Shown here: positions 3,530-47,797 of the stretch, piece by piece
Position numbering within the stretch: the stretch's first letter is position 1
Layout: each line of letters starts with the position of its first letter
Source: Actinoplanes sp. L3-i22
GTDB lineage: Bacteria > Actinomycetota > Actinomycetes > Mycobacteriales > Micromonosporaceae
Length of the DNA: 64,000 nucleotides
NCBI RefSeq assembly: GCF_019704555.1
Contig: NZ_AP024745.1
Span: forward strand, 3,976,501-4,040,500
Direction: 5' to 3'
The notes under the pieces: model-generated
Database searches by the model: none
Seen by the model: the letters and a program-made list of their open reading frames with translations, nothing else
Told to the model about the DNA's origin: nothing
Position numbers and translations under genes: made by a program

Positions 3530-4342
3530 TCAGCTCGGTTTGGGGAGCGGGACGACCAGCGGGGTGCCGGTGGCGGGGTCCGGGACGACCATCGCGGACA
3601 GGCCGAAGACCTCGGCGAGCAGGTCGACGGTGAAGACCTCGGCGGGCGGGCCCTGGGCGACGATCCGGCCGGCGTGCATCGCGATCACGTGCTCGGCGTA
3701 GCGGGCGGCCAGGTTCAGGTCGTGCAGGACCATCACGATCGTCCGGTCGCGCTCGCGGTGCAGGCGCCCGACCAGGTCCAGCACGTCGATCTGGTGGGCC
3801 AGGTCCAGGAACGTCGTCGGTTCGTCGAGCAGCAGCACGTCGGTGCCCTGGGCCAGGGCCATCGAGATCCAGGCGCGCTGACGCTGGCCGCCGGAGAGCG
3901 CCTCGACCGGGCGGTCCGCGAAGTCGCGCATGTCGGTCCAGGCGAGCGCCTCGGTGACGATCTCCTGGTCGGCCGGGGACCACTGCCGGAACCAGGTCTG
4001 GTGCGGGTGCCGGCCGCGCATCACCAGGTCGGCGACGGTGAGCCCGTCCGGCGCCACCGGGGACTGGGGGAGCATGCCGACGATCCGGGCCACCTCGCGG
4101 GTGGGCACCCGGTCGATCCGCCGGCCGTCGAGCAGGACCTCGCCGGCGAACGGCTTGAGCAGCCGGCCGAGCGCACGCAGCAGGGTCGACTTGCCGCAGC
4201 CGTTCGGGCCGACGACGGCGGTCACCGCGCGATCCGGGATGTCCAGGTCGAGGCCGTCCACCACGATGTCGTCGCCGTAGCCGAGCCGCAGCCCGCGCGC
4301 CTGCAGCCGGCTCGTGCGGGTGACGGTGCGCAAGCCGGTCAT
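3530..4342 (-). CDS. ferric-siderophore ABC importer, ATPase subunit
   Basis: A 270-residue FecE/FepC-type ATPase. Walker A is GPNGCGKST, the signature is [10 protein letters not shown], Walker B is [12 protein letters not shown], and the H-loop is VLHDLNLA. It would energise import of ferric siderophore through the two adjacent FecCD permeases. The ATG at 4342 overlaps the stop of the upstream permease gene (ATGA), indicating translational coupling. This start removes a long N-terminal extension that the frame would otherwise allow. As last gene of the minus-strand importer operon it should be controlled by the iron box at 6470-6488. Confidence 0.93.
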
Positions 4343-5403
4343 GTCGTCCTCCGATTGGTGCGGATCAACAGCCAGAGCAGGTAGGGCGCGCCGACGATCG
4401 CGGTGACCAGGCCGACCGGCAGTTCGCGCGACGGCAGGACGGTGCGGGCCACCAGGTCGGCCGCGGAGACGAGCAGGGCGCCGAGGATCGCGGAGACGAC
4501 CAGGGGCGGGCGGGAGCCGCCGCACAGGCGCAGCGCGATCTGCGGGACGACGAACGCGACGAACTCGATCGGCCCGGCGGCGGCGACCGCTGCGGCGGCC
4601 AGCGCGACGGCGGTGAGCACCACTGCCAACTGCGCCAACTGCAGACGTACGCCGAGGGACCGCGCCACGTCGTCGCCGAACTGCAGCGCCTGCAACGTGA
4701 AGGCGGTGGCGACCGCCAGCGGCAGCAGCACTGTGAGCGCGAGGGCGAGCGGCCGGACCTGCACCCAGTCGGCGCCGGCGACCGAGCCGTTGAGCCACAC
4801 GGTGGCCCGGGCGGCGTCGACGATCTCGGCGCGGATCAGGAACCAGGAGACGCCGCCGCTGACCACCTCGCCGACGCCGATGCCGATCAGTACCAGGCGG
4901 TAGCCGTCCACGCCGCGCCGCCAGGCCAGCAGGTACACGGCGGCGGCCGTGACCAGGCCGCCGGCCAGCGCGGCCAGCGGCACCCCGGTGGCCGCGGATC
5001 CGCCGAGCACGATCAGCGCGACCGCGCCGAGCGAGGCGCCGTTGGTGACGCCGAGCACGTCCGGGCTGGCGAGCGGGTTGCGGGCGAACGTCTGGGTCAG
5101 CGCGCCGGAGACGGCCAGGGCCGCGCCGACCATCAGCGCCACCAGGATGCGCGGCAGCCGCAGGTCGAGGATCACCAGTTGCTGCGCCGCGGTGCCCCCG
5201 CCGAGCAGGGTGCCGACCACGTCGCCGGGCGCGATCGTGAAGCTGCCGTGCCCGATGCTGACCACCGTGACCGCGATCGTGGCGGCGATCCCGGCCAGCC
5301 CGACGGCCACGCCGCGCGGCGACAGGGTCCCGCCGAAGCGCCCGGCGCTGAGCACTCTGCGCCCGGCCGGCCGCACCGGGGTGGTCGGGGTAAGAAGGGT
5401 CAC
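4339..5403 (-). CDS. FecCD-family ferric-siderophore permease (second subunit)
   Basis: A 354-residue polytopic permease of the FecCD/BtuC family with about ten hydrophobic helices. Family hallmarks visible are [28 protein letters not shown] text ([17 protein letters not shown]) and the C-terminal [12 protein letters not shown](I)ALRL segment. It forms the membrane channel with the neighbouring permease. Its ATG at 5403 overlaps the previous gene's stop by four bases and its own stop overlaps the ATPase start, so all three are coupled in one operon. Confidence 0.93.
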
Positions 5404-6434
5404 AGCTTGACCGTCCCGGCTCGGCGGCGGACCAGGGCGATGAAGAACGGCGCGCCGACCGCGGCCAGCACGATGCCGGTCTGCAGTTCGGCGGGTCGCA
5501 GCACGACCCGGCCGACGGTGTCCGCGGCCAGCAGCAGGACCGCGCCGGTCAGCGCCGAGCAGGGGATCAGCCAGCGATGATCGGGACCGGTCATCGAGCG
5601 GGCCACGTGCGGCACGATCAGGCCCAGGAAGATGATCGGCCCGCAGGCCGCGGTCGCCGCCCCGGCCAGCAGCACGATCGCGGTCACGCCGATCACCCGG
5701 GCCGACAGGATCCGCTGGCCGAGGGCCCGGGCGACGTCGTCGCCGAGGCCGAGCGCGTTCAGCGCGGGCGCGTTGACCAGCGCGAGCACCAGCCCGGCCA
5801 GGATGAACGGCGCGACCTGGGCGGCCACCCGGGCGTCCCGGCCGGAGAGCGAGCCGACCACCCAGAACCGGAAGACGTTCAGGCTGGCGTCGTCGCTGAG
5901 CAGCAGGGCCTGGGTGAACGAGCTGAGCAGGGCGCTCATCGCGAGCCCGGCCAGTGCGAGGGTGACCGGGGTCGGCCCGCCGCGCCCGCCGGTCGCGACC
6001 GCGAAGACGGCGAGGCTGGCCAGCAGCGCGCCGGCGAACGCGAACCAGATGTAGCCGCTGAGCCCGCCGACGCCGAGCTGGATGCCGATCACCACGCAGA
6101 ACGACGCGCCGGCCGAGATGCCGAGCAGGCCGGGGTCGGCGAGCGGGTTGCGGGTGTGGCCCTGCATCAGGGCGCCGGCCGCGCCGAGCGCGAGTCCGGC
6201 CAGGACGCCGAGGACGGTCCGGGGCAGCCGGAGTTCGCGGACGATCGCGGTGGCCTGGGCGGCCGGGTCCGGGTCGGTCAGGGCGTGCCAGATCTCGGCC
6301 GGGCTCAGGGTCTGCGCGCCGATCGACAGGCTCAGCACGACCGCCATCGCGACCGCCGCGACCAGGCCGATCAGCGTCCGGCCAGGACGGTGCGCGACCG
6401 GTGCCGGGCGGCCGGCCCGGAGAGTGGTCACCAT
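5400..6434 (-). CDS. FecCD-family ferric-siderophore permease (first subunit)
   Basis: A 344-residue permease of the same family as its neighbour, with the conserved [32 protein letters not shown] and [15 protein letters not shown] segments and multiple membrane helices. It is the first gene of the importer operon, starting at ATG 6434. An iron box at 6470-6488 lies about 35 bp upstream, so transcription is expected to rise under iron starvation. Together with the lipoprotein encoded divergently at 6567 it makes a complete binding protein-permease-ATPase uptake route. Confidence 0.93.
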
Positions 6435-6469: not shown

Positions 6470-6488
6470 GAAGGTTAGCCTTACCGAA
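6470..6488 (-). promoter_or_regulatory. iron box (DmdR/IdeR type) for importer operon
   Basis: GAAGGTTAGCCTTACCGAA matches the actinobacterial IdeR/DmdR consensus (TTAGGTTAGSCTAACCTAA) at 15 of 19 positions by my alignment. It sits in the promoter region of the minus-strand importer. Iron-bound DmdR/IdeR would repress from here; this is inference from the motif. Confidence 0.7.
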
Positions 6489-6525
6489 ACAAGGACCCCG
6501 TATTGCCTCCGTAGCGGAGCGTCGC

Positions 6526-6544
6526 TTAGCTTAGCCTCACCTAA
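6526..6544 (+). promoter_or_regulatory. iron box (DmdR/IdeR type) for siderophore-binding protein
   Basis: TTAGCTTAGCCTCACCTAA matches the IdeR/DmdR consensus at about 17 of 19 positions, counting either C or G as allowed at the centre. It ends 22 bp before the ATG of the lipoprotein gene. Paired with the box at 6470-6488 it gives both divergent transcripts iron control. Confidence 0.8.
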
Positions 6545-6566: not shown

Positions 6567-7589
6567 ATGTCCTTCCCCATCCCCGTTTCCCGCCGCACCT
6601 TCGCGGCCGGACTCGCTGTCGCGGCCGGGCTCGCCCTGCTCAGCGGCTGCGGCGGCGACGACGGTGACGACGCGGCGGCGCCGGCCTCCTCGACCGCCGC
6701 GGCCGCGAGCTTCCCGGTCACGCTGACGCACAAGCTGGGCACGGCCGAGGTCAAGGCCGCCCCGCAGCGGGTCGTCGCGCTGTCCGACGCCGACCTGGAC
6801 GCGCTGCTGCTGCTCGGCGTGCAGCCGGTCGGCGTGGCCGAGTCCTCCGGCGAGGGTGGCGTCACCGACTGGGCCCGGCCGCTGCTGACCGGCAAGCCGA
6901 CCGTGCTGACCGCGGGCGACACCGGCTTCGACGTGGAGAAGATCGCCGCGCTGGCGCCGGACCTGATCCTGGCCGGCGGCGACTACTACATCGCCGACGA
7001 GTACGCCAAGCTCAGCAAGCTCGCCCCGACCACCGCGTACGAGACCACCGGCGCGTTCGAGGACCCGTGGCAGACCACGCTGCGCCAGGTCGGCAAGGCG
7101 GTCGGCCAGGGCGCGAAGGCCGAGCAGGTGGTCACCGACGTCGAGGCCAAGGTGGCCAAGGCCAAGACCGATCACCCGGAGCTGACCGGTAGGGAGTTCA
7201 CCCTCAGCCAGATGTGGGAGGCCGGCTCGATCGGCGTGCTGCGCTCCGACAAGGACGCCGGCGTGAAGATGCTCAACGACTTCGGGATGAAGCTGGCGCC
7301 GGCGGTGGCCGCGCTCAAGGGCGACGAGTTCGCCGTGCAGCTGAGCCTGGAGAAGGTCAGCGTGCTGGACTCGAACGTGACGCTGGTCTACTACGCCGAC
7401 CCGGCGCTGCAGCCCGGCCTGGAGGGCAACAGCCTGTTCAAGGGCCTGGCCTCGGTCCAGCGTGGCTCGTACAAGGCGCTGACCGGTACGCAGTTCTCGG
7501 CGCTGCGCTCGCCGACGGCGCTGTCGGTGCAGTACCTCATCGACAACGTCCTGCCGGTGATCTCGGACGCGGCCAAGAAGGCCGCCTGA
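6567..7589 (+). CDS. ferric-siderophore substrate-binding lipoprotein
   Basis: A 340-residue FepB/FhuD-type periplasmic-binding protein. The N-terminus carries a twin-arginine-like motif (SRRTFAAG), a hydrophobic stretch and a lipobox LLSGC with the acylated cysteine at residue 28, so a Tat-exported lipoprotein is likely. The mature part shows the TroA/helical-backbone pattern (PQRVVALSDADLDALLLLG, ALAPDLILAGG). ATG 6567 was chosen over the much longer open frame because it gives the signal peptide and has GAGAGG upstream. It would bind the ferric siderophore outside the membrane and hand it to the divergently encoded permeases. The acetyltransferase gene abuts its stop. Confidence 0.93.
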   Translation: MSFPIPVSRRTFAAGLAVAAGLALLSGCGGDDGDDAAAPASSTAAAASFPVTLTHKLGTAEVKAAPQRVVALSDADLDALLLLGVQPVGVAESSGEGGVTDWARPLLTGKPTVLTAGDTGFDVEKIAALAPDLILAGGDYYIADEYAKLSKLAPTTAYETTGAFEDPWQTTLRQVGKAVGQGAKAEQVVTDVEAKVAKAKTDHPELTGREFTLSQMWEAGSIGVLRSDKDAGVKMLNDFGMKLAPAVAALKGDEFAVQLSLEKVSVLDSNVTLVYYADPALQPGLEGNSLFKGLASVQRGSYKALTGTQFSALRSPTALSVQYLIDNVLPVISDAAKKAA

Positions 7590-8213
7590 GTGTCGGCCCG
7601 CGAGGTGACCGACGGTCTCGCCGCGGCGGTTGTCGCGGCGGGGCCGCCGCCCCTGCCGGTGCTCGCGGCGCCCTGGTCGATCCGGGTGCTGGAGGCCAAG
7701 GGGGACGATCCGGAGCTGGTCAGCCGCTGGATGAACGAGCCGCACGTGGAGCTGTTCTGGGAGCAGGCGTGGCCGCCGCAGCGCTGGGCGGACGCGATCG
7801 CCGGGCAGCTGGCCGGGGAGTGCTCCCGGCCGTGCCTGGTGTCCTACCGGGACGAGCCGCTGGCGTACGTGGAGATCTACCGCACACCCCGGGACGTCGT
7901 CGGCCTGCGCTACGACGCGGATCCGTACGACCTGGGTATCCATCTCGCGATCGGCGACCGCGGCCGGACCGGGCGGGGCCTGGGCCGGGCGATGGTCCGG
8001 GCGGTCGCGGACGGGCTGGCCATCGCGGACCCGCGGGTGCGCCGGGTGCTGGCCGATCCGGACGAGCGGCACGCGATGGCGCGCCACATGTTCGCCGGCG
8101 CCGGATTCCGGCTGCTGGGCGTTCGTGATCTTGGTCATAAACGCGCTGCCCTCTATTTCTATGAGATTTCAGGAAATGACCCCGAGCGCGCCTTTACCGA
8201 CTCGTGGGAATAA
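7590..8213 (+). CDS. IucB/RhbD-type siderophore N-acyltransferase (GNAT)
   Basis: A 207-residue GNAT acyltransferase of the siderophore group that acylates N-hydroxylated lysine or ornithine. Group hallmarks are WMNEPHVELFWEQAWP, a substrate-side LAYVEIY segment, and the acyl-CoA loop region GRTGRGLGRAMV. The GTG start follows the lipoprotein TGA with no gap, so the two are co-transcribed. With the N-hydroxylase at 46499 it would make an N-acyl (probably acetyl) hydroxamate side chain; the acyl group and amino acid cannot be read from the sequence. The last codons lie inside an AT-richer stretch that carries the promoter of the NRPS operon, and its stop overlaps the iron box. Confidence 0.87.
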   Translation: MSAREVTDGLAAAVVAAGPPPLPVLAAPWSIRVLEAKGDDPELVSRWMNEPHVELFWEQAWPPQRWADAIAGQLAGECSRPCLVSYRDEPLAYVEIYRTPRDVVGLRYDADPYDLGIHLAIGDRGRTGRGLGRAMVRAVADGLAIADPRVRRVLADPDERHAMARHMFAGAGFRLLGVRDLGHKRAALYFYEISGNDPERAFTDSWE

Positions 8214-8229
8214 GGTAAGCCTTACCTAA
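8211..8229 (+). promoter_or_regulatory. iron box controlling the NRPS operon
   Basis: TAAGGTAAGCCTTACCTAA matches the IdeR/DmdR consensus at 16 of 19 positions and contains a perfect 7-bp palindrome around a central C. It overlaps the TAA stop of the acetyltransferase and lies 36 bp before the aryl carrier start. A TTTACC at 8193-8198 with a 17-bp spacing to TAAGCC could be the promoter; that part is tentative. Confidence 0.8.
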
Positions 8230-8265
8230 CTAACTAATCGGACCACTACCGAAGGACCCCCGCAG

Positions 8266-8499
8266 ATGACCGCACCCCTGAGCCTCGAACGTCTGCGCAG
8301 CGACGTCGCCGAGGTGCTGGCCGAGGAGCCGGGCAGTTTCGCCGACGACGAGAACCTGATCGATCTCGGTCTCGACTCGATCCGGTTGATGAGCCTCGCC
8401 ACCCGCTGGCGGGAAGCCGGATACCAGGCCGGATACCTCGACCTGGCCAAGGAGCCGACGGTCACCGCGTGGTGGAACCTGCTGGAGGGGAAGCGTTGA
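8266..8499 (+). CDS. stand-alone aryl carrier protein
   Basis: A 77-residue carrier protein with the phosphopantetheine attachment motif LGLDSIRLM (Ser38). The text DDENLIDLGLDSIRLM and the C-terminal TAWWNLL resemble the aryl carrier domain of EntB/DhbB, but here it is free rather than fused to an isochorismatase. GAAGGA precedes the ATG at suitable distance. As first gene of the NRPS operon it should accept the DHB adenylate made by the ligase at 44968 and present it to the halogenase encoded next and to the first C domain of NRPS1. Confidence 0.9.
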   Translation: MTAPLSLERLRSDVAEVLAEEPGSFADDENLIDLGLDSIRLMSLATRWREAGYQAGYLDLAKEPTVTAWWNLLEGKR

Positions 8500-9989
8500 G
8501 CCCGATCATCGAAAGCGCCGACGTCGTCGTCATCGGCGGCGGCCCGGGTGGGTCCACCACCGCCACGCTGCTCGCCAAGCGCGGGCACCGGGTCGTGCTG
8601 CTGGAGAAGGAGACCTTCCCCCGCTACCAGATCGGCGAGTCGCTGCTGCCGTCCACGGTGCACGGCATCGGCCGGATCCTGGGCGTGACCGAGGAGCTGG
8701 AGAAGGCGTCCTTCATGGTCAAGCGGGGCGGCAGCTTCCGCTGGGGCACCAACCCGGTGCCGTGGAACTTCCTGTTCGCGGTGGCCCCCGAGCTGTCCGG
8801 CCCGACCTCGTACGCCTACCAGGTCGAGCGGATGAAGTTCGACGACATCCTGCTGCGCAACGCGGCGAAGAACGGCGTCGACGTACGGGAGAACAGCCCG
8901 GTCACCGAGGTCGTCAGCGACGACGAGCGGGTCCGCGGGGTGCGCTACACCGGCCCGGACGGCGTCGAGCACGAGATCCGCGCGACGTTCGTGGTGGACG
9001 CCTCCGGCAACCGCAGCCGGGTCCACCAGAACGTCGGCGGCGAGCGGCTCTACTCCGACTTCTTCCAGAACATCGCGCTGTTCGGCTACTTCGAGGGCGG
9101 CAAGCGGCTGCCCGCGCCGGACAGCGGCAACATCCTCTGCGCCGCCTTCGACGAGGGCTGGATGTGGTACATCCCGCTCTCCGACACGCTGACCAGCGTC
9201 GGCGCGGTGATCAGCCGGGAGCACGCGGCCAAGCTGCAGGGCGACCAGGAGCAGGCGCTGCTCGGCTTCGTCGACCGCTGCGAGATCGTCAAGGGCTTCC
9301 TGTCCGAGGCGACCCGGGTCACCGAGGGCACCTACGGCGAGATCCGCACCCGCAAGGACTACTCGTACACCAACTCGACGTTCCACCGGCCCGGCATGGT
9401 GCTGGTCGGCGACGCGGCCTGCTTCATCGACCCGGTCTTCTCCACCGGCGTGCACCTGGCCACCTACGCCGGTCTGCTCGCCGCCCGGTCGATCAACAGC
9501 GTGCTGGCCGGCGACGTCACCGAGGAGCGCGCGTTCGGCGAGTTCGAGGGCCGCTACCGCCGCGAGTACCGGGTCTTCTACGAGTTCCTCTCGGCGTTCT
9601 ACGACATGCAGAGCAACGAGGAGTCGTACTTCTGGAAGGCCCGCAAGGTCACCAACTTCAACGCCACCGACCTGGAGGCGTTCGTCAGCCTGGTCGGCGG
9701 CGTGCACTCCGGTGAGCAGGCCTTCACCAACGCCGACCAGCTGGTCGGCGACTTCCGGGAGTCGTCCGGCGCGCTCGCCGACGCGGTCGAGCGCACCGGA
9801 AGCATGGAGACCGAGACCGGCGACAAGATGCACCACCTCTTCGGTACGCCGGTGGTCCAGGAAGTGATGACCGAGATGAACAACGTGCAGGTGCGCGGCG
9901 TGCTCGGGGAAGCCGCGCGGGAGCTGCCGCTGCTGGCCGACGGCCTGGTCCCGTCCGCCGACGGCCTGGCCTGGAGGGAGACCGCGTGA
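8496..9989 (+). CDS. FAD-dependent halogenase, carrier-bound phenol type
   Basis: A 497-residue flavin-dependent halogenase. It has the dinucleotide fold ([11 protein letters not shown], residues 10-20), the catalytic-lysine region (FMVKRGG, Lys76), the halogenase tryptophan motif (GWMWYIPL, residues 221-228) and [18 protein letters not shown] (305-322). These match the CmlS/PltA side of the family, which acts on carrier-bound or phenolic substrates using FADH2, O2 and chloride. The TTG start at 8496 overlaps the carrier protein stop (TTGA) and follows GGAGGGG by five bases, removing the nine extra N-terminal codons of the open frame. Coupling to the aryl carrier gene suggests it chlorinates the carrier-bound DHB; chlorocatechelin-type siderophores are the closest precedent I know. 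A flavin reductase is not encoded nearby except possibly the flavoprotein at 41715. Confidence 0.88.
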
Positions 9990-10207
9990 CGACCAACCCG
10001 TTCGAGGACGAGGACGGCCGGTACCTGGTGCTGGTCAACGACGAGCGCCAGCACTCGCTCTGGCCGGCGTTCGCCGACGTGCCGGCCGGCTGGACGGTCG
10101 CGTTCGGCGAGGACAGCCGGGCCGCCTGCTTCGATTACGTCGAGAAGAACTGGACCGACATGCGGCCCGCGTCGCTCGTCGCCCAGATGGACGCCGCAGC
10201 CGGCTGA
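9986..10207 (+). CDS. MbtH-like protein
   Basis: A 73-residue MbtH-family protein with the complete conserved core: [30 protein letters not shown] and the three tryptophans, ending NWTDMRP. These proteins bind NRPS adenylation domains and are needed for their solubility or activity. The GTG start overlaps the halogenase stop (GTGA). Position directly before the first NRPS gene fits that role for some or all of the seven A domains. Confidence 0.97.
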
Positions 10208-10227
10208 TCGCCGCCGCTCCACCCGTG

Positions 10228-10257
10228 GACCGCCGCGCCTTGCCGGGCGCGGCGGTC
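10228..10257 (+). other. strong hairpin between mbtH-like gene and NRPS1
   Basis: A perfect 12-bp inverted repeat (GACCGCCGCGCC / GGCGCGGCGGTC) with a six-base TTGCCG loop fills the only sizeable gap (79 bp) inside the operon. There is no T-run. It could be an attenuating terminator, an RNA-stability element or a processing site that sets different expression of the small upstream genes and the giant NRPS genes. Confidence 0.5.
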
Positions 10258-10286
10258 ACCACCCTGCACAAGTACGGAGTACGCCA

Positions 10287-37587
<27,301 letters not shown>

Positions 37588-37591
<4 letters not shown>

Positions 37592-39213
37592 CCCGCGGTG
37601 AGCTGCTGAGCTGGGCGGCCCGGCAGTCCCGGGCCGGATTGCTCGCGTCGTGGATCGGCGGGCTCGGCTACCAGGGTGGGCTGCTCGCCCTGCCGTGGGC
37701 GATGGGCCACGGCGTCGACGCGGTCCGCACCGGCGACCGGCCGGCCCTGCTGCTGTGGGCCGGCGCCACCCTGGCCGTCTCGGTCGCGCTGACCGGCGCC
37801 GAGTGGGCGATGCGCTGGTGGTCGACGCTCGCCGGGGTCCGCACCGGCAACGCGCTGCTGCTGCGCCTGGCCGGGCGGGTGCTCGGCTGGGACGCCGCGA
37901 CCGCGCACCGGTTCAGCTCCGGTGACCTGGTGGTCCGCGGCACCCGCGACGCCGAGCAGGTCACCGTCTGGCTGTCCACGGTGCCGTCGCTGGCCAGCGG
38001 AGTGCTCGGGATGATCACCGTGCTGGTCCTGATCGCCACGCTGGACCCGCTGCTCGCGGTGATCGGGCTGGCCGCGCTGCCGCTGCTGGTGCTGGTCAAC
38101 CTCTGGTACCCGCGCCGCTACGAGCGGGCCAACGAGCAGCTCTCCGCCGCGCACGGCGCCCGCGCCGATGCCGTCGAGGACCTGCTCTCGGCCAGCACCG
38201 CGGTCCGTGGCCTGGGCGGCGAGGCGGTGCTGATCGAGCGGCACCACGCGGCCAGCCGGACCGTCCGGGACCGCACCCTGGCGGTGGCCCGGGTCGCGGC
38301 CGGCTGGTCGGCGCACGCCCCGTTCGTCCCCTGGCTGGCGACCGCGGCCGGGGTCGCCGTCGGTGGTCTCGCGGTGCTCGACGGGCGGCTCTCGGTCGGC
38401 GGCCTGACCGTCTTCGCCGGCTGGATGGCGCTGCTCGGCCGGCAGGTGATGATGCTGACGCTGCGGTTCAGCCAGTTCGGCGACGCGTGGACGGCGGCCG
38501 GCCGGATCGCCGAGGTCCTCGAAGCGTCCCCGGAGCTGGTCGCCCCGGCGGATCCGAAGCCGGTGCCCGAGGGGTCGTTGCGGACCGCCGGGATCACCGT
38601 GCGCGACGGCTTCGCGCTGCCGGACCTCGCCGTCGCGCCCGGCGAGTTCGTCGCGGTGATGGGGCCGGTCGGCAGCGGCAAGTCCACGCTGCTGCGGCTG
38701 CTCGCCCGGCTCGCCGACCCGGCCACCGGCGCGGTCACGCTCGGCGGGACCGACCTGCGCGAACTGGACCTGGACCAGCTGCGCGGCGCGGTCACCCTGG
38801 TCGGGCAGCGGCCGCTGCTGCTGTCCGGGACGATCGCCGACAACCTGCGGCTGGGCCGGCCCGGGGTCACCGACGAGCGGATCCGCGAGGCCTGCCGGCA
38901 CGCCGCGATCCTCGCGCACGTCGAGTCGCTGCCCGCCGGGTTCGGCACCGAGCTCGGCGAACGCGGCGCGGGCGTCTCCGGTGGCCAGGCGCAGCGGCTC
39001 GCGCTCGCCCGCGGCCTGCTGCGCGACGCCCGGGTGCTGCTGCTCGACGACGTGACCTCGGCCGTCGACGCCGGCACCGAGCAACGCATCCTCGACGGCC
39101 TCCGTGCGCAGGGGTGCACGGTCGTCTTCGCCACCTCGCGCCCGGCGGTCGCCGCGCGCGCCGACCGGGTCATCCACCTGGGCGTGCACGACGGGGAGCT
39201 GGTCCATGGCTGA
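37588..39213 (+). CDS. ABC transporter half-subunit with degenerate nucleotide site
   Basis: A 541-residue membrane-plus-ATPase half-transporter of exporter fold. Hydrophobic helices occupy roughly residues 20-290 and the nucleotide domain follows: Walker [10 protein letters not shown], signature [14 protein letters not shown], Walker [13 protein letters not shown]. The catalytic glutamate after Walker B is Asp, and the H-loop histidine is absent (VFATSRPA), so its own ATP site is probably non-hydrolytic. GTG 37588 overlaps the NRPS2 stop (GTGA). It pairs with the next gene. Partners of this fold export peptides or, as in YbtPQ and IrtAB, import ferric siderophores; sequence alone does not settle the direction here. 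Confidence 0.9.
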
Positions 39214-40918
39214 CGTACGGATGCTGACCGAGGAGCCCGACCAGCGGCACGTGCTGCGCCGGTTCTGGCCGCACCTGCGCCGGCACCGGGCCGCGATGGC
39301 CGGTGCGGTCGCGGTGAATCTGCTGGCCACCCTGGCGCTGACGCTGGTGCCGGTGGCCGTCGGCCGGGCGGTCGACGCGGTGCTGGACAAAAACCGGCAA
39401 GGGCTTATCGCGTACGCCGCAATGGTCTTGATCCTGGTTGTCGCCCGCACGGTCCTGCTGCGGTGGTCGGAGCTGCTGCTGACCCGGGCCGGCGAGCGGG
39501 TCGTGCACGACCTGCGCGACCTGGTGGTGGAGCGGCTCGGCGGGACACCGTTGCGGTTCCTGGAGGCGCATCGCGGCGGTGACCTGCTGCAACGGGCGAC
39601 CGTCGAGATCGCCGAGCTGGCCACCTTCGTCCGCGGGCAGCTGCCCGACCTGATCTCGCTCGCCGGGTACGTGGTGTTCGCCACGGTCGTCCTGCTCACC
39701 TCGTCCTGGCAGCTGTTCCTGCTGCTGGTGCTGGTGTTCGCGCCGCCGATGTGGCTGTTGGCCCGGATCGTGCGGCGGGCCGCCGAGCGCGCCTACCCGG
39801 CCGAGGCCGCGGCCCGCTCGACGCTGACCGCGACGTTCTCGGAGAGCCTGCTGGCCCGGGAGCAGCTGCAGATCGACGGGGCGACCGGGACGTGGCTGGC
39901 CCGGCTGCGCGGGGACACCGAGGGGTACTACCGGCGGGCCCGGGCCGCGCAGGGGGCGGCGACCTGGATCGACGCCACCTGGGTGGTGCAGGGGTTCACC
40001 AGCGCGGCGCTGCTGGTCGCCGGTGGGATCCTCGCCGCGAACGGGCACGTCACGGTCGGTGTGGTGGTCACGTTCGTGCTGGCCAGCCGGGATCTGTTCA
40101 GTTCGGTCGACGATCTGACCCTGGTGGTCGGGGAGCTGCTGGAGACCCGGGTCGGGCTCGCGCGCCTGCTGGATCTGCTGGAGGCGACCCGGCCGGTTTC
40201 CACGCTGATCAAGGCTGATAAATCGGATGCACGCGGTCTGTCGGCCGACCGGGTCACCTACAGCTACGCCGCCGGGGAACCGGTCCTGCACGGCGTCACC
40301 GTCCACTTCGCGCCCGGCGAGCACGTCGGCCTGGCCGGCGAGACCGGCTCCGGCAAGACCACCCTGGCCAAGCTGCTCTGCGGCCTCTACCTGCCGGACT
40401 CCGGCACGGTCCGGCTCGGCGGCGTCGACCTGGCCGACCTGGACGCGGCCGACCTGCGCCAACGCCTGGTCCTGATCCCGCAGCAGGTGCACATGATCGC
40501 CGGCACGCTCGCCGACAACCTGGCCCTGACCCCGGGCGGCAAGACCCACGACGACTTCGCCGCGGCCGCCGGCGCGCTGGGGCTGGCCGGCTGGATCGAC
40601 GCGCTGCCGGCCGGCTTCGACACCGACCTGGGCCGGCGCGGCGAGCGCTTCTCGGCCGGGGAACGGCAGCTGGTCGGCCTGATCCGGGCCGCGATGACCG
40701 ACCCCGAGGTGCTGATCCTCGACGAGGCCACCGCCGACCTCGACCCGGGCACCGCCGAGCGGATCGAGCAGGCCCTGGCCCGGCTCCGGGACGGCCGCAC
40801 GGTCCTGGTCATCGCCCACCGCCCCGCCACCATCGCCCGCCTGCCCCGGGTGGTGCGACTGCACGCCGGTCGCCTGGCAACTCCCGGCCCGGAGAAAGAC
40901 GAGGAACCATGCCCCTGA
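39206..40918 (+). CDS. ABC transporter half-subunit with intact nucleotide site
   Basis: A 570-residue exporter-fold half-transporter. The membrane part is followed by Walker A GETGSGKTT, the signature-like FSAGERQLVGLIRA, Walker B VLILDEATADLD with the catalytic glutamate, and an H-loop histidine (VIAHRPAT). It therefore complements the degenerate subunit encoded just upstream, the usual asymmetry of heterodimers. ATG 39206 overlaps the upstream gene by eight bases and removes 34 spurious upstream codons. Substrate is likely the siderophore or its iron complex, from context. Confidence 0.92.
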   Translation: MADVRMLTEEPDQRHVLRRFWPHLRRHRAAMAGAVAVNLLATLALTLVPVAVGRAVDAVLDKNRQGLIAYAAMVLILVVARTVLLRWSELLLTRAGERVVHDLRDLVVERLGGTPLRFLEAHRGGDLLQRATVEIAELATFVRGQLPDLISLAGYVVFATVVLLTSSWQLFLLLVLVFAPPMWLLARIVRRAAERAYPAEAAARSTLTATFSESLLAREQLQIDGATGTWLARLRGDTEGYYRRARAAQGAATWIDATWVVQGFTSAALLVAGGILAANGHVTVGVVVTFVLASRDLFSSVDDLTLVVGELLETRVGLARLLDLLEATRPVSTLIKADKSDARGLSADRVTYSYAAGEPVLHGVTVHFAPGEHVGLAGETGSGKTTLAKLLCGLYLPDSGTVRLGGVDLADLDAADLRQRLVLIPQQVHMIAGTLADNLALTPGGKTHDDFAAAAGALGLAGWIDALPAGFDTDLGRRGERFSAGERQLVGLIRAAMTDPEVLILDEATADLDPGTAERIEQALARLRDGRTVLVIAHRPATIARLPRVVRLHAGRLATPGPEKDEEPCP

Positions 40919-41718
40919 TCGATATCGGCGGGGTCCGCCTGAACTACGACGAACGTGGCGCCGGCCCGGCGGTGCTGTTGCTGGCCGGCACCGGCGCCCG
41001 CGGCCGCACCTGGCACCTGCACCAGGTCCCGGCCCTGGTCAAGGCCGGTTTCCGGGTGGTCACGTTCGACACCCGGGGGATCGCGCCGTCGGACACCCCG
41101 CCGGTGGTGACCATGCCGGACCTGGTCGCGGACGCGGCCGGGCTGATCGAGCGGCTCGGACTCGGGCCGTGCCGGGTGGCCGGCTCGTCGATGGGCGCGC
41201 GGGTCGCCGCCGAGCTGTGCCTGCGCCGGCCCGAGCTGGTCGACCGGGCGGTGCTGATGGCGACGTTCGGCAGGCCGAGCGCGTTCCTGAGCGCGCTGAC
41301 CGCGGGGGAGCGGGCGCTGCGCGAGAGCGGGGCGAAGCTGCCGGAGGAGTACCTGGGCGCGGTGCGGGCGATGCTCAACCTGTCGCCGCGGACGCTCGCC
41401 GACGACCGGGTCGCGCAGGACTGGCTGGACATCTTCCGGCTGCCGGTGCCGGGGGAGCCGGACGGCGAGGCCAGCCGGCTGGAGGCCGAGTCGGAAGTGG
41501 ACCGGTTCACGGCGTACGCCGAAATCTCTGTTCCTTGTCTTGTCCTCGGCTTCGCCGACGACCTGATCGCCCCCGCCCGCGGTAATCGCGCCGTCGCGGC
41601 GGCCATCCCCGGTGCCCGGTACGCGGAGATCCCCGACGCCGGTCACTACGGCTATCTGGAGCAGCCCGAGCCGGTCAACGCCGAGCTCATCCGGTTCCTG
41701 ACAGAGGAGAAATCATGA
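40909..41718 (+). CDS. alpha/beta hydrolase, candidate release thioesterase or esterase
   Basis: A 269-residue alpha/beta hydrolase with nucleophile elbow GSSMG (Ser94), a downstream acid in GFADDLIAP and the histidine in DAGHYGYLEQPE. Oxyanion-region text is LAGTGARGRTW. It overlaps both neighbours by a few bases, so it is coupled inside the siderophore operon. NRPS2 has no thioesterase domain, so this enzyme is the best local candidate to free the peptide, like the free esterase proposed for coelichelin. Alternative roles are a proofreading type II thioesterase or hydrolysis of the ferric siderophore after uptake. Confidence 0.85.
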   Translation: MPLIDIGGVRLNYDERGAGPAVLLLAGTGARGRTWHLHQVPALVKAGFRVVTFDTRGIAPSDTPPVVTMPDLVADAAGLIERLGLGPCRVAGSSMGARVAAELCLRRPELVDRAVLMATFGRPSAFLSALTAGERALRESGAKLPEEYLGAVRAMLNLSPRTLADDRVAQDWLDIFRLPVPGEPDGEASRLEAESEVDRFTAYAEISVPCLVLGFADDLIAPARGNRAVAAAIPGARYAEIPDAGHYGYLEQPEPVNAELIRFLTEEKS

Positions 41719-42506
41719 TCACCGCCCGCGAGGTCGAACTGGTCTGGCACGACCTGACCCCCAGGCTGCTCGAGGTGGTCCGCACCGAGGCGGTCAGCCC
41801 GCGCATGCTGCGCGTCACCCTCGGCGGCGAGCAGCTCGACGGGTTCCGCTACGGCGCGCCGGACGACCACGTCAAGGTGTTCTTCCCGGAGCCGGGCGCC
41901 GAGCTGCCGGTGATGCCGACGCTCGGCGAGGACGGCCTGGAGCCGCCGCCGCCCGGCTCGCCGCTGCCGACGTTCCGCGACTACACGATCCGCTACCTGC
42001 GGCCCGAGCAGCGCGAACTCGACATCGACTTCGCGCTGCACGGGCACGGCCCGGGCGGGTCCTGGGCGGCGAAGGCGCAGCCCGGCGACCGGGTCGGCAT
42101 CCTCGGGCCGCGCGGCTCGACGGTGGTCCCGCTGACCTTCGACTGGTACCTGCTCGGCGCCGACGAGACCGCGCTGCCGGCCCTGGGCGCCTGGCTGGAG
42201 CAGCTGCCGGCCGGCGCGACCGTGCTCGCCTTCGCCGAGGTCGCCGACGCCGCCGAGCAGCAGCCGCTGGCCCGGCCGGCGACCTGGCTGCACCGCGACC
42301 GCGGGCAGTCCCTGCAGGCGGCGATCCTCGCGGCCGAGCTGCCCACCGGCGACGGCTACGTCTGGGTCGCCGGCGAGGCCACCGGGCTCAAGCCGATCCG
42401 CCGGCACATCCGGTCGCGGGGCCTGAACCGGGACTGGACCGAGATCGACGGCTACTGGAAGCGCGGCGTCGTGAACCTGGACCACCACGAGGACGAGAAT
42501 GAGTGA
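41715..42506 (+). CDS. siderophore-interacting FAD protein (ferric-siderophore reductase)
   Basis: A 263-residue protein of the SIP/ViuB family. The FAD-binding motif is RDYTIRYL, followed by HGHGPGGSWA, an NAD(P)H-domain with LLGADETALPAL, and the C-terminal WVAGEA...YWKRG. Such proteins reduce ferric siderophores in the cytoplasm to release iron. ATG 41715 overlaps the hydrolase stop and its end overlaps the antiporter start, so it is fully within the operon. Its position after the two ABC half-transporters recalls IrtAB, where this domain is fused to one transporter subunit. Confidence 0.93.
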   Translation: MITAREVELVWHDLTPRLLEVVRTEAVSPRMLRVTLGGEQLDGFRYGAPDDHVKVFFPEPGAELPVMPTLGEDGLEPPPPGSPLPTFRDYTIRYLRPEQRELDIDFALHGHGPGGSWAAKAQPGDRVGILGPRGSTVVPLTFDWYLLGADETALPALGAWLEQLPAGATVLAFAEVADAAEQQPLARPATWLHRDRGQSLQAAILAAELPTGDGYVWVAGEATGLKPIRRHIRSRGLNRDWTEIDGYWKRGVVNLDHHEDENE

Positions 42507-43806
42507 GTCACTGCCCGGCCTGGACCCGCACGTGCTGCTGGTCTTCCTGCTGCAGGTGTCGCTGCTGCTGCTGATCGCGTTCGCGCTGGGCCGGCTCGCG
42601 GTCCGGATCGGGCTGCCCGCGCTGGTCGGTGAGCTGCTCACCGGGGTCCTGCTCGGGCCCTCGCTGCTCGGCGCGCTGACCCCGGAGCTGTTCTCCTGGG
42701 TGCTGCCGAACGACGCGGACCAGTTGCACCTGGTCGACGCGGTCGGCCAGATCGGCGTGCTGCTGCTGGTCGGCGTCACCGGCATCCAGCTCGACGGGCG
42801 GATGCTGCGCAAACGCGGCTCGACCGGGCTCAAGGTCAGCCTCGCCGGGCTGCTGCTGCCGCTCGCGCTCGGCATCGGCGCCGGCTTCCTGGTGCCCGCC
42901 GCGCTGCTCGCCGACGGCAGCGACCGCGGCGTGTTCGCGCTGTTCCTGGGCGTCGCGATGTGCGTCACGGCGATCCCGGTGATCGCCAAGATCCTGGCCG
43001 ACATGGGTCTGCTGCACCGCGACATCGGCCAGCTGACCCTGGCGGCCGGCACGGTCGACGACGCCGTCGGCTGGTTCCTGCTGTCGGTGGTCTCGGCCGC
43101 GGCCACCACCGGGGTACGCGCCGGCACCGTCTCGATGTCGGTGCTGTACCTGGTCCTGTTCGTCGCCGCCGCGTTCCTGCTCGGCCGCCCGGCCGTGCGC
43201 TGGGTGATGCGGCGCGTGCACGGCGGCCCGCGGGTCACCGTCGCCGTGGTGGTGATGCTGCTCGGCGCGGCCGTGACGCAGTCGATGAGGATGGAGGCGA
43301 TGTTCGGCGCCTTCATCGCCGGCATCCTGATCGGCCAGGCCCGCGACGACGAGGGCATCCTCTGGCGGGACCTCACGCCGCTGCGCACCGTGGTGCTCAG
43401 CGTGCTCGCGCCGATCTTCATGGCCACCGCCGGCCTACGGATGGACCTGACCGCGCTGGCCGACCCGAAGGTGCTGCTCGCCGGGTTCGCCCTGCTGCTG
43501 GTGGCGATCGTCGGCAAGTTCGCCGGGGCGTACCTCGGCGCCCGGGCCAGCCGCCTCTCGCACTGGGAGGGGATCGCGCTCGGCGCCGGGATGAACGCGC
43601 GCGGCGTCGTCGAGGTGGTGGTCGCCACCACCGGCCTGCGGCTGGGCGTGCTGACCATCGCGACGTACACGATCGTGGTGCTGATCGCCGTGGTCACCTC
43701 GGTGATGGGCCCGCCGATCCTGCGCCTGGCCATGTCCCGGATCGAACCGACCCCCGACGAGCGGGACCGTGAGCTCGTGCTGGCCGGAACGGCGGTGCGC
43801 CGATGA
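42499..43806 (+). CDS. CPA2-type cation/proton antiporter
   Basis: A 435-residue polytopic protein of the monovalent cation/proton antiporter-2 family with about twelve hydrophobic segments. It shows an N-terminal GLPALVGELLTGVLLGPSLL segment, the paired acidic core TVDDAVGWFLLS, and a late GMNARGVVEVVVA segment. It is translationally coupled on both sides within the siderophore operon. Antiporters of this kind are not standard siderophore genes; a function in product efflux, in ion balance during export, or simply in iron-starvation physiology is inference. Confidence 0.88.
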   Translation: MSESLPGLDPHVLLVFLLQVSLLLLIAFALGRLAVRIGLPALVGELLTGVLLGPSLLGALTPELFSWVLPNDADQLHLVDAVGQIGVLLLVGVTGIQLDGRMLRKRGSTGLKVSLAGLLLPLALGIGAGFLVPAALLADGSDRGVFALFLGVAMCVTAIPVIAKILADMGLLHRDIGQLTLAAGTVDDAVGWFLLSVVSAAATTGVRAGTVSMSVLYLVLFVAAAFLLGRPAVRWVMRRVHGGPRVTVAVVVMLLGAAVTQSMRMEAMFGAFIAGILIGQARDDEGILWRDLTPLRTVVLSVLAPIFMATAGLRMDLTALADPKVLLAGFALLLVAIVGKFAGAYLGARASRLSHWEGIALGAGMNARGVVEVVVATTGLRLGVLTIATYTIVVLIAVVTSVMGPPILRLAMSRIEPTPDERDRELVLAGTAVRR

Positions 43807-44978
43807 CCGCCGTCTCCACCGCCACCACCGGCGCCGAGCTGCTCGCCGGCTACCAGCCCGGGGAGTCCTCGCTGTTCGCGTCGCCGCGGGGCACGCTGCT
43901 CGCCGAGGGCACCTGGTTCGCGGTGCCGCCGTCCGGCCGTCCGGACGGCCACGCCGACCTGGCCCGCCGGGTCGAGGCGGTGCTCGGCGTGGCCGAGGCG
44001 GCCGGGCACGAGGTGCGGACCGTGGTCGGCGCCGTGCCGTTCGCCCCGGGCGCCGACGCCCGCCTGATCGTTCCGCAGCGGCTGCGCCGCGGTGGCGCCC
44101 CGGTGGCCGCTGATCATCGGCGGTCGGCGCTCGGCATCGCCGGGCTGCGGCCGGTGCCGACGCCGGAGGGCTACCGCGCGTCGGTGGCCCGGGCGGTCGC
44201 CGAGATCCGGGCCGGGCAGTACACCAAGGTCGTGCTGGCCCGTTCGCTGCACGCCGAGGTGACCGGTTTCGATCCGGCGCCGGTGGTCCGCGCGCTGGCC
44301 GGCCGGGACCCGGGCGGCTACACCTTCGCCGTCGACCTGGGCGCTGGGCGCACGCTCTTCGGGGCCAGTCCGGAGCTGCTGGTGGCCCGGCACGGGCGGA
44401 CCGTGACCGCCAATCCGCTGGCCGGTTCGGCGGCCCGCAGCGCGGACCCGGCCGAGGACCGGCGCCGGGCCGCGGCGCTGCTCGCCTCGGCCAAGGACCG
44501 CCACGAGCACGCCGTGGTCAGCGAGCAGGTGGCCTCGGTGCTGCGCACCTACTGCACGGACCTGGACGTGCCGGCCGAGCCGTCGCTGGTCGCGACGGCC
44601 ACCATGTGGCACCTGTCCACGCTGGTCACCGGGGAGATCGCCGACCCGGCGGTCTCCGCGCTGGAACTGGCGACCGCGCTGCACCCGACGCCGGCGGTCT
44701 GCGGCACGCCGACCCCGGCCGCGCGCGCCGCGATCGGCCGGCTGGAGGAGTTCGACCGGGGCTTCTACACCGGGATGGTCGGCTGGGTGGACGCGTCCGG
44801 CGACGGCGAGTGGGCGGTCACCATCCGCTGCGCGACCGCCTCGCCCGAGGGCCTGGACATCTACGCGGGCGCCGGCGTGGTCGGCGACTCGGATCCGCGG
44901 GCCGAGCTCGCCGAGACCACCGCCAAGCTCGGCACCATGCTCACCGCGCTGGGAGTGGAGAACGCCGATGTGGCCTGA
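43803..44978 (+). CDS. isochorismate synthase (DhbC/EntC type)
   Basis: A 391-residue chorismate-utilising enzyme. Motifs include [57 protein letters not shown] and the metal-binding [16 protein letters not shown]. It converts chorismate to isochorismate, the first step of 2,3-dihydroxybenzoate (DHB) synthesis. It overlaps the antiporter stop (ATGA) and the DHB ligase start. No isochorismatase or 2,3-dihydro-DHB dehydrogenase is in the window, so the next two steps must be encoded elsewhere. A salicylate synthase is less likely because the adjacent ligase has DHB-type pocket residues. Confidence 0.93.
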
Positions 44979-46479
44979 CGACTTCGCCGAGCGCTACCGC
45001 AAGCTCGGCTACTGGACCGGCCAGACGCTCTTCGAGCTGCTGTCCGATTCTGACCGGATCGCCGTGGGCGCGCTCACCTATCGGCAGCTCCGGGCGAGAT
45101 CTCTGCGGCTTGCCGCCGGGTTCCATCAATGGGGGGTACGGCCGGGAGACCGTGTCGTGGTCCAACTGCCGAACGTCACCGAGTACTTCGAGGTGATCTT
45201 CGCGCTGTTCCGGCTCGGCGCCCTGCCGGTCTTCGCCCTCCCGGCCCACCGCAGCTCGGAGATCGGCTACTTCTGTTCGCACACCTCCGCGGTCGCGTTC
45301 ATCACCGAGCACGCCGAGCTGGCCGCCGCGGCCGGTGACGCCAAGGTGATCCTGATCGGCGAGCTGGCCGGCATCGACGGCGACCCGGCCACCCTGCCGC
45401 CCGGCCCGCAGCCCTCGGACCTGGCATTCCTGCAGCTCTCCGGCGGCAGCACCGGCCTGCCGAAGCTGATCCCGCGCACCCACGACGACTACCTCTACAG
45501 CGTCCGGGAGAGCGCCACCATCTGCGGCCTGACCGAGGACAGCGTCTACCTGGCGGTGCTGCCGGTCGCGCACAACTTCACCATGTCCTCGCCGGGCGTG
45601 CTCGGCGTCTTCCACGCCGGCGGCCGGGTCGTGCTGTCGCCCCGGCCGGACCCGGCGACGGTGTTCCCGCTGATCGAGCGGGAGCGGGTCACGATCACCG
45701 CGGTCGTGCCGCCGCTGGCGCACCTGTGGCTGGAGGGCAGTTCGCTGGCGTCCGATCTGTCCAGCCTGGAAGTGCTGCAGGTGGGCGGCGCCAAACTCGC
45801 CGACACCGTCGCCGAGCGGGTGCGGCCGGTGCTCGGCTGCCAGTTGCAGCAGGTCTTCGGGATGGCCGAGGGCCTGGTCAACTACACCCGGCTGGACGAC
45901 CCGGACGAGATCGTGCTGCACACCCAGGGGCGGCCGATCTCGCCCGACGACGAGGTGCTGATCGTCGACGACGACGATCGGCCCGTGCCGGACGGGACCG
46001 TGGGGCATCTGCTGACCCGGGGTCCGTACACCATCCGGGGTTACTGGCACGCGGAAGAGCACAACAAGACCGCGTTCACCGAGGACGGCTTCTACCGCAC
46101 CGGCGATCTGGTGCGCCGGGTCGACGGCGGCTACCTGGTCGTCGAGGGCCGGGCCAAGGACCAGATCAACCGTGGCGGCGAGAAGATCGCCGCCGAGGAG
46201 GTGGAGAACCACCTGCTCACCCACCCGGCGGTGCACGACGTCGCGGTCGTCGCGGTGCCCGATGTGTACCTCGGCGAGCGCACCTGCGCGTTCGTCGTGC
46301 CCAGGACCGGGGCGACCGCCCCGAAGCTTGCCGAGGTCCGCGCCTACCTGCGCGACCGCGGCCTGGCCGAGTACAAGATCCCGGACCGGGTCCGGGTGCT
46401 CGACACGTTTCCCGTCACCGGCGTCGGCAAGGTCAGCCGGCGCGAGCTGCGCGCGGCGTTGCGTGCCAGTGCCCGCTGA
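44968..46479 (+). CDS. 2,3-dihydroxybenzoate-AMP ligase (DhbE/EntE type)
   Basis: A 503-residue aryl-AMP ligase. The core P-loop is [18 protein letters not shown], the substrate motif is [10 protein letters not shown], the [14 protein letters not shown] block is intact, and the catalytic lysine lies in [12 protein letters not shown]. In DhbE the residues matching the Asn and Ser of HNxxxSSPG and the Val of GLVNYTR select DHB, whereas salicylate enzymes tend to have Cys and Leu there; this protein has the DHB set. It would adenylate DHB and load the free aryl carrier encoded at 8266. It starts inside the isochorismate synthase gene. Confidence 0.94.
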
Positions 46480-46498
46480 GTCAATGGAGGCCACCACC

Positions 46499-47797
46499 AT
46501 GCAGGACAACGACGTGTACGACCTGGTCGGCATCGGCTTCGGACCCTCGAACCTGGCCCTGGCCATCGCGATCGAGGAACACAACAACGGCTGCCCGCCC
46601 GCCGAGCGGCTGCGCGCGGTCTTCCTGGAGAAGCAGGACGACTTCGGCTGGCACCGCGGGATGCTCTTCGAGGACGCGACCATGCAGGTCTCGTTCCTCA
46701 AGGACCTGGTCACCATGCGCAACCCGAACAGCGACTACAGCTTCGTGTCGTACCTGCACGCCAACGGGCGGCTGGCCGACTTCATCAACTACAAGAGCAT
46801 GTATCCGCTGCGGGTGGAGTTCCACGACTACCTGTACTGGGCGGCGAGCCGGGTCAAGGACAGCGTGCACTACGGCCACACCGTCACCGACGTCGTTCCG
46901 GTGCGGGGCGGCGCTCTGCTCGATGTGACGGCGGGCGCGCGGACGTTCCGTACCCGCAATGTCTCGGTCGCCGTCGGCCTGGAGTCGAGTCTGCCGCCGG
47001 GAGTGGCATCGGCCGAACGCGTCTGGCACAACCTGGACATCCTGCACCGGGCGGCCGCGTTCGAGGTGGCCGAGCCGCGGCGCTTCGTGGTGGTCGGTGC
47101 CGGGCAGAGCGCCGCCGAGTCGGTGTCGTTCCTGCACGAGCGCTACCCGAGCGCCGAGGTCTGCGCGGTCTTCTTCCGCTACGGCTACAGCCCGGCCGAC
47201 GACAGCAACTTCGCCAACGGGATCTTCGACCCGGAGGCCGTCGACCTGTACTTCGACGCGCCCGCCGACGTCAAGCGGATGCTCTTCGACTACCACCGCA
47301 ACACCAACTACTCGGTGGTCGACGGCGACCTGATCGAGGACCTGTACCGGCGCGCCTACCGGGAGAAGGTGCTCGGCCGGACCCGGCTGCGGATGCTCAA
47401 CGCGTCCCGGATCGCCGACCTGACCGCCGTCCCGGACGGGATCACCGTGGTCGTCGAGCACCTGCCGACCGGCGAGCGCACGCCGCTGGACGCGGACGCG
47501 ATCGTGTTCGCCACCGGCTACCGGCCGGTCGACGTCACCCGGATGCTCGGCGCGGCCGGCGAGCACTGCCTGCGCGACGAGCAGAACCTGCTGCGGGTCA
47601 CCCGGGACTACCGGATGGTGACCGATGATGATCTGCGGGCGGGCATCTACCTGCAGGGTGGGACCGAGCACGTGCACGGGATAACGTCCACGCTGCTCTC
47701 CGCCGTCGCGGTCCGCTCCGGCGAGATCGTGGCCTCGCTCGCCGCCTCGCCCCGCGATGTCGCGGACCGTCCGCTGGCCCTGATCGGGGACCGCTGA
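46499..47797 (+). CDS. L-ornithine/L-lysine N-hydroxylase (SidA/IucD family)
   Basis: A 432-residue flavin N-hydroxylating monooxygenase. FAD motif GIGFGPSNLALA, the MQVSFLKDLVTMRNP block, NADPH motif VVGAGQSAAE, the substrate-side DDSNFANGIFDPE and C-terminal FATGY are all present. It hydroxylates the side-chain amine of ornithine or lysine to supply hydroxamate ligands; ornithine is more usual in actinomycetes but cannot be proved here. ATG 46499 has GGAGG eight bases upstream and was preferred to the in-frame ATG 46484. It closes the long operon. Confidence 0.93.
   Translation: MQDNDVYDLVGIGFGPSNLALAIAIEEHNNGCPPAERLRAVFLEKQDDFGWHRGMLFEDATMQVSFLKDLVTMRNPNSDYSFVSYLHANGRLADFINYKSMYPLRVEFHDYLYWAASRVKDSVHYGHTVTDVVPVRGGALLDVTAGARTFRTRNVSVAVGLESSLPPGVASAERVWHNLDILHRAAAFEVAEPRRFVVVGAGQSAAESVSFLHERYPSAEVCAVFFRYGYSPADDSNFANGIFDPEAVDLYFDAPADVKRMLFDYHRNTNYSVVDGDLIEDLYRRAYREKVLGRTRLRMLNASRIADLTAVPDGITVVVEHLPTGERTPLDADAIVFATGYRPVDVTRMLGAAGEHCLRDEQNLLRVTRDYRMVTDDDLRAGIYLQGGTEHVHGITSTLLSAVAVRSGEIVASLAASPRDVADRPLALIGDR

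Follow-up and report, generated by a model that had tools for sequence, protein, structure and literature searches.

How does a chlorinated catechol siderophore obtain its 2,3-dihydroxybenzoate (DHB) when the operon for its assembly encodes half of the DHB pathway? This question is raised by a 64-kb stretch of DNA (the window, C1:3976501-4040500) from Actinoplanes sp. L3-i22, whose 12.01 Mb genome is a single contig (C1). Between positions 8211 and 47797, the window holds a 39.6 kb operon encoding a free aryl carrier, a halogenase, an MbtH-like protein, seven nonribosomal peptide synthetase (NRPS) modules, exporters, a DHB ligase, an isochorismate synthase (ICS) and an ornithine N-hydroxylase. 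From comparison of sequences, we consider it highly probable that this is an orthologous Actinoplanes version of the chlorodactyloferrin (daf) cluster known from Dactylosporangium fulvum, with its DHB supply split over two loci.

A chlorodactyloferrin-type cluster in Actinoplanes

As described by Caradec et al. 2023 (PMC10683483), the D. fulvum product is composed of 4-Cl-2,3-DHB, Gly, Arg, ornithine (Orn), N-OH-N-Ac-Orn, Orn, Ser and cyclo-N-OH-Orn, and is backed by knockout and NMR. D-Arg and D-Ser were measured in it, the remaining D positions being taken from the epimerases (PMC10683483). The same source gives DafA four modules, DafB three and the pair four epimerases, adds the halogenase DafH together with DafJ, DafK and DafL, and includes the complete set of four DHB genes (dafC-F).

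Comparison with the D. fulvum DNA (CP073720) showed 17 window genes, from the importer ATPase to the hydroxylase, to be collinear with their counterparts. The likeness covers the gene order from the uptake genes to the ornithine hydroxylase, the seven modules, the epimerases, the aryl carrier, the halogenase and a dafK-type release enzyme. The halogenase adjoins the aryl carrier, as in D. fulvum (87% and 95% identity), and the Orn hydroxylase, acetyltransferase, dafK-type hydrolase, exporters and importer keep the D. fulvum order. The conserved unit is wider than the biosynthetic operon, adding divergent uptake genes (about 3530-6434) and a binding protein and acetyltransferase (6567-8213). 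Downstream, the window genes at 47818 and 49093 gave no tblastn match in 60 kb around the D. fulvum cluster.

A first-pass annotation had proposed one iron-boxed operon for a halogenated catecholate/hydroxamate heptapeptide siderophore. Profile and motif searches recovered the genes and domains where it had placed them, and both the class and the scaffold pattern agree with chlorodactyloferrin as reported. Its suggestion that the module order with a halogenase is new no longer holds: the characterised D. fulvum cluster has the same order (PMC10683483; DNA compared), and an identical product is predicted here. The annotation had left out the divergent uptake genes and the binding protein (6567), which belong to the conserved unit, and had not remarked that the operon encodes ICS and DHB ligase and lacks entB (isochorismatase) and entA (2,3-dihydro-DHB dehydrogenase). 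The features are as follows, with percentages giving identity to D. fulvum.

3530-4342, minus strand: ABC ATPase, FepC-like, dafT homologue (ABC_tran PF00005; 246 aa at 87%; start codon tentative)
4339-5403, minus strand: FecCD-type siderophore permease (PF01032, 282 bits; 80%)
5400-6434, minus strand: FecCD-type siderophore permease (PF01032, 312 bits; 76%)
6470-6544, no strand: two DtxR/IdeR-type iron boxes in the divergent promoter region (6470, 15/19; 6526, 17/19)
6567-7589, plus strand: siderophore-binding protein, FepB-like (PF01497; 73%)
7590-8213, plus strand: IucB-type N-acetyltransferase, dafJ homologue (PF13523, 133 bits; 76%)
8211-8229, no strand: iron box ahead of the biosynthetic operon (TAAGGTAAGCCTTACCTAA, 16/19)
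8266-8499, plus strand: free aryl carrier protein, ArCP (PF00550; 95%)
8496-9989, plus strand: FAD-dependent halogenase, dafH homologue (PF04820, 244 bits; 87%)
9986-10207, plus strand: MbtH-like protein (PF03621)
10287-25124, plus strand: NRPS1, dafA homologue, modules 1-4 (70%)
25121-37591, plus strand: NRPS2, dafB homologue, modules 5-7 (67% over residues 4-2943)
37588-39213, plus strand: ABC exporter half (PF00664 and PF00005)
39206-40918, plus strand: ABC exporter half (PF00664 and PF00005)
40909-41718, plus strand: alpha/beta hydrolase, dafK homologue (PF00561; 72%)
41715-42506, plus strand: siderophore-interacting flavoprotein (SIP), iron release by family (PF08021, PF04954)
42499-43806, plus strand: Na+/H+ exchanger-like membrane protein (PF00999)
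43803-44978, plus strand: ICS (TIGR00543, 269 bits, above cut-off)
44968-46479, plus strand: 2,3-DHB-AMP ligase (TIGR02275, 698 bits, slightly below the 723.55 cut-off)
46484-47797, plus strand: ornithine N5-monooxygenase, dafL homologue (PF13434, 348 bits; 81%)

The exchanger-like gene sits inside the siderophore operon and is found in 10 of the 11 daf clusters (no match in genome G160).

Two DHB genes are missing from the operon

The window differs from the daf cluster in lacking entA and entB, so that its dafC-F set is reduced to ICS and ligase. In 9/11 daf clusters entA occupies the gap between exchanger and ICS, and entB that between ligase and hydroxylase; both are absent from the window and from A. 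cyaneus, and in the window the junctions at the two sites are tight. Because entA and entB are absent, DHB cannot be completed by the window operon alone. We still regard the window cluster, like that of A. cyaneus, as orthologous to daf: a variant form in which two of the four DHB genes lie elsewhere.

The genome has one DHB-type ICS, that of the window, and four other homologues at 32-35%. NCBIfam TIGR03494 identifies the homologue at 7.29 Mb as a salicylate synthase. Its surroundings (C1:7275001-7295000) form a second siderophore-like locus, where an ornithine hydroxylase homologue (63%) and an aryl-AMP ligase (55%) are also encoded.

The nearest entA and entB in the genome form a pair at C1:10323926-10325306, 6.3 Mb from the window. 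Both are 71% identical to D. fulvum, the next best candidates in the genome reaching 45% and 34%, and the remote EntA scores 335.9 against a DHB dehydrogenase cut-off of 300. An iron box matching at 18/19 lies ahead of the pair, at 10323537, and no NRPS motif run was found in the 60 kb around it. A. cyaneus carries the same entA-entB pair and box at its second locus. Ratios of nonsynonymous to synonymous substitution (dN/dS) between the two species were 0.14 for remote entA and 0.26 for remote entB, and 0.20, 0.23, 0.27 and 0.27 for ICS, ligase, halogenase and hydroxylase in the daf cluster. Selection still acts on both halves of the DHB pathway.

The second locus in relatives

Related genomes carry fuller versions of the second locus. 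In G053, genes for a lipoprotein, SIP, MFS, PMT-like and NTPase-like protein, in the same order as beside the remote pair, lead to an aryl carrier, entA, ICS, ligase, entB and a one-module NRPS. G052, G042 and G085 have entA-ICS-ligase-entB among the same neighbours, and reading 60, 40 and 20 kb, respectively, revealed no run of NRPS motifs. G039 and G078, perhaps at a different locus, have an aryl carrier, the four DHB genes and a one-module NRPS; their flanks in the 20 and 18 kb read show no match to the second-locus neighbours. G051, a member of the genus, retains only a broken entB beside these second-locus neighbours; the 20 kb read there contains no iron box, and the genome has no daf halogenase. 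The second locus thus forms a graded series, from a DHB operon with aryl carrier and NRPS, through one lacking NRPS in the part that was read and an entA-entB pair, to a broken entB.

Sequence identities and trees separate the two kinds of locus. Remote EntB is 84-90% identical to EntB of A. cyaneus, G042, G052, G085 and G053; against the six EntBs encoded by daf clusters within the genus, the figure is 72-77%. It falls in the second-locus group of the EntB tree (100/99), and the window ICS falls in the daf group of the ICS tree (100/99). The broken G051 remnant was in none of the trees, and a Streptosporangium row was in the ICS tree only.

Among the 67 same-genus genomes, the 14 with a DHB-type ICS (E<=1e-80) were the same 14 that have entB (E<=1e-90; 23 at 1e-50). 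Six of them hold daf genes only, six hold second-type genes only, and two, the window genome and A. cyaneus, are split; no genome with both complete DHB operons was found among the 67.

It is reasonably probable that two homologous DHB operons (entA-entC-entE-entB) underwent mirror-image losses, daf keeping ICS and ligase and the second locus keeping dehydrogenase and isochorismatase, so that one siderophore now needs two unlinked loci. Complementary loss after both operons met in an ancestor is the simplest reading. The remote pair would be what is left of a second DHB operon after the loss of ICS and ligase there. The daf operon would supply ICS and ligase, and the iron-boxed pair 6.3 Mb off would provide isochorismatase and dehydrogenase in trans.

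Weighing the split pathway

Several observations weigh against this account. A repeat expansion in the L3-i22 genome (C1:10323576-10323925, 60-bp and 39-bp units) lies between the iron box and the entA core, and splits off the old entA start (10323576), which is in another frame. Because of this expansion and frame change, remote entA must restart at an internal GTG or ATG. Reading in the leader frame reaches a TGA stop that shares bases with an in-frame GTG at 10323860 (a GTGA stop-start), an overlap that might allow coupled translation; in A. cyaneus, entA is uninterrupted and has no such expansion. More distant isochorismatases and SDRs encoded in the genome could serve instead of the remote pair. 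In G052, G042 and G085, the DHB genes and the PMT-like gene (with the NTPase-like gene in 2/3) are inverted relative to SIP and MFS. The EntB proteins of G039 and G078 are 76-77% identical to remote EntB, not above the nearest daf EntB (77%). The EntA tree parts the two groups with only 88/92. The window ligase groups with daf (97/97) yet sits near the split, and a 92/91 fork places it and the A. cyaneus ligase together with the second-locus ligases, apart from the other nine daf ligases. A box alone is no proof of iron control, because the D. fulvum cluster is boxed yet reported as not iron-regulated (PMC10683483). Finally, product, chlorination and iron control in strain L3-i22 are predicted from sequence. 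The inverted neighbours in three relatives and the G039 and G078 identities are the reason why our confidence in the overall assignment stops at high; they touch the split pathway, not the orthology with daf.

Recombination inside the window ligase was also considered, and sliding identity revealed no breakpoint.

If the operon were crippled, making little or no DHB without its own entA and entB, the remote pair would serve otherwise or be decaying. The loss of both genes from the operon, the disrupted start of remote entA and the state of the second locus in G051 would fit such a history. We nevertheless judge it unlikely, given that the remote pair keeps its 18/19 box, stop-free cores and low dN/dS, that the daf genes are equally constrained and that A. 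cyaneus keeps the same arrangement.

Predicted product

By core motifs, NRPS1 reads C-A-T / C-A-T-E / C-A-T / C-A-T-E and NRPS2 reads C-A-T-E / C-A-T-E / C-A-T (C, condensation; A, adenylation; T, carrier; E, epimerase). Epimerases thus stand in modules 2, 4, 5 and 6, and there are 4+3 A-domain modules, as in the daf cluster. The C motif of modules 2 and 4 is HHxxxDE. Core-motif counts for NRPS1 and NRPS2 were C 6+5, A 4+3 and carrier 4+3, excluding a stray carrier-like motif at 28940 and a stray C-like motif at 17349. Pfam gave condensation 7+5, AMP-binding 5+4 and PP-binding 4+3 stretches, and the surplus C and A stretches were taken as split domains. No thioesterase family appeared in the Pfam scan, NRPS2 having no thioesterase domain. 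The same domain order was obtained by core motifs in the 7/11 daf clusters parsed.

Substrate pockets were read with what we take to be the GrsA position numbering, the terminal K of each code being likewise assumed. The codes were DILQLGLIWK, DVSDVGAITK, DTWDAGLVDK and DVAAIGAVNK for modules 1-4, and DTWDAGLVDK, DVWHISLVDK and DAWEGGFVDK for modules 5-7. Modules 1, 3, 6 and 7 are identical to D. fulvum, and modules 2, 4 and 5 are off by two, one and one residues. Each altered position either shows an I/V exchange or is found in the same form in other daf clusters. By alignment, A. deccanensis has DVAAVGAVNK in module 4. Taking substrates from the D. fulvum product through the matching codes, we predict Gly, D-Arg, Orn, D-(N-OH,N-Ac)Orn, D-Orn, D-Ser and N-OH-Orn for modules 1 to 7. 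The expected product is 4-Cl-DHB-Gly-D-Arg-Orn-D-(AcOH)Orn-D-Orn-D-Ser-cyclo(OH)Orn. For D. fulvum, PMC10683483 gives [M+H]+ 1001.459 for the ion that shows a chlorine pattern and 967.496 for the one that does not.

The NRPSs are just 67-70% identical to those of D. fulvum, which, with the three differing pockets, could point to a new and different chlorinated heptapeptide siderophore. The order of modules and of genes matches D. fulvum, however, as do the epimerases and the tailoring genes, and the changed residues are of the kinds just described, making a different product very unlikely. Kineochelins and megalochelin were also considered as matches and set aside: in the parts of their sources available, mentions of a halogenase concern other clusters.

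In the predicted assembly, the halogenase, by homology, would chlorinate DHB and the ligase would load it onto the free aryl carrier. NRPS1 and NRPS2 would add the seven residues in the order above. The alpha/beta hydrolase (40909-41718), by homology with DafK, would then free the chain by cyclising release as cyclo-hydroxyornithine. Fe(III) would be bound by one catecholate and two hydroxamates. The ABC exporters would export the siderophore, the FepBCDG-type importer would take it up and SIP would release the iron.

The best solved chain for the halogenase was 3e1t, named 'Halogenase' (E 4.4e-170). Were the enzyme idle or acting on another substrate, the product would be non-chlorinated dactyloferrin, which does occur as a minor natural product of D. 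fulvum (PMC10683483). Against this, the enzyme is close to its D. fulvum counterpart and present in all 11 daf-type genomes found, and we hold such an outcome to be highly improbable.

The A-domain cores of modules 3 and 5 (18784-20284 and 26472-27971) share 90.6% identity across 1508 nt, including an exact run of 239 nt; the corresponding values are 84.6% and 185 nt in A. cyaneus, and 82.2% and 212 nt in D. fulvum. These near-copies look like gene conversion between two ornithine modules. An altered product through these modules was considered and rejected: no new residue is expected, because both load Orn in chlorodactyloferrin and D. sucinum has the same pocket pair.

Iron boxes

The boxes at 6470, 6526 and 8211 are the sole matches of at least 15/19 in the window to what we take to be the DtxR/IdeR consensus, and 200 first-order Markov simulations gave 0. 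Scores in the window are 15, 17 and 16/19, compared with 15, 19 and 18/19 in the D. fulvum cluster. The D. fulvum 19/19 and 18/19 boxes (L032, positions 12346 and 14024) lie at the same two promoters that are boxed in the window. Iron control of the window operon is something we infer.

Precedents and distribution

Siderophores such as rhodochelin, erythrochelin and the qinichelins reportedly draw building blocks from more than one gene cluster, and a split DHB supply itself has precedents. In those cases separate clusters cooperate, whereas the present case seems to be one of two homologous DHB operons, each having lost the half that the other retains. Among the matches listed in literature searches (titles and abstract starts, subscription journals mostly outside), there was no report of mirror-image DHB operon loss, nor of a daf-type cluster in Actinoplanes. 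The main text of PMC10683483 makes no mention of 'Actinoplanes'.

Chlorocatechelins A and B have a mirubactin-type scaffold and are much smaller. As chlorinated catechol siderophores that carry both DHB and hydroxamate groups they resemble the predicted product, and they are relatives of the mirubactins (PMC9609785).

The product here is very probably already known, which spares a discovery campaign, and what is new is the split DHB gene supply. If true, complementary loss would provide a compact natural case of two redundant operons turned into one split pathway. It also cautions against predicting products from single clusters, the window operon by itself being without half of the DHB pathway.

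A daf-type halogenase (E<=1e-240, at least 85% identity) was found in 11/354 genomes of the family, and a dafK homologue of at least 71% in the same 11, the next best beyond them being 60%; for these counts, scoring was limited to the best 7 and 4 candidates of each genome. In the survey of daf-cluster genes, tblastn matches below 45% identity were dropped. No daf cluster without halogenase was found among the 354 genomes, a test that a strongly diverged one would escape. At E<=1e-150, 17/67 same-genus genomes (that of the window included) have a halogenase, eight of daf type (at least 85%) and nine with 57-63% homologues only; three family members outside the genus have the daf type as well. 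The range of likely chlorodactyloferrin producers is thereby widened to these eight and three genomes, which is useful because chlorodactyloferrin is reported to couple to pyridine-bearing antibiotics (PMC10683483).

A scan of named genomes, limited by its peptide patterns, returned 27 halogenase loci, nine of daf type. Of the 18 others (52-76% identical), 11 also match the window aryl carrier in the stretch fetched; they come from Streptosporangium, Gordonia, Nocardia, Amycolatopsis, Actinomadura, Tsukamurella and the myxobacterium Hyalangium. The remaining seven, including Streptomyces loci and Rhodococcus rhodnii, gave no aryl-carrier match in the stretch fetched. It is possible that the loci with an aryl carrier encode further chlorinated catechol siderophores. 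Another genus of the family also has a daf cluster with entA and entB in place, in a genome of 6.7 Mb (G160:C1:3803001-3863000).

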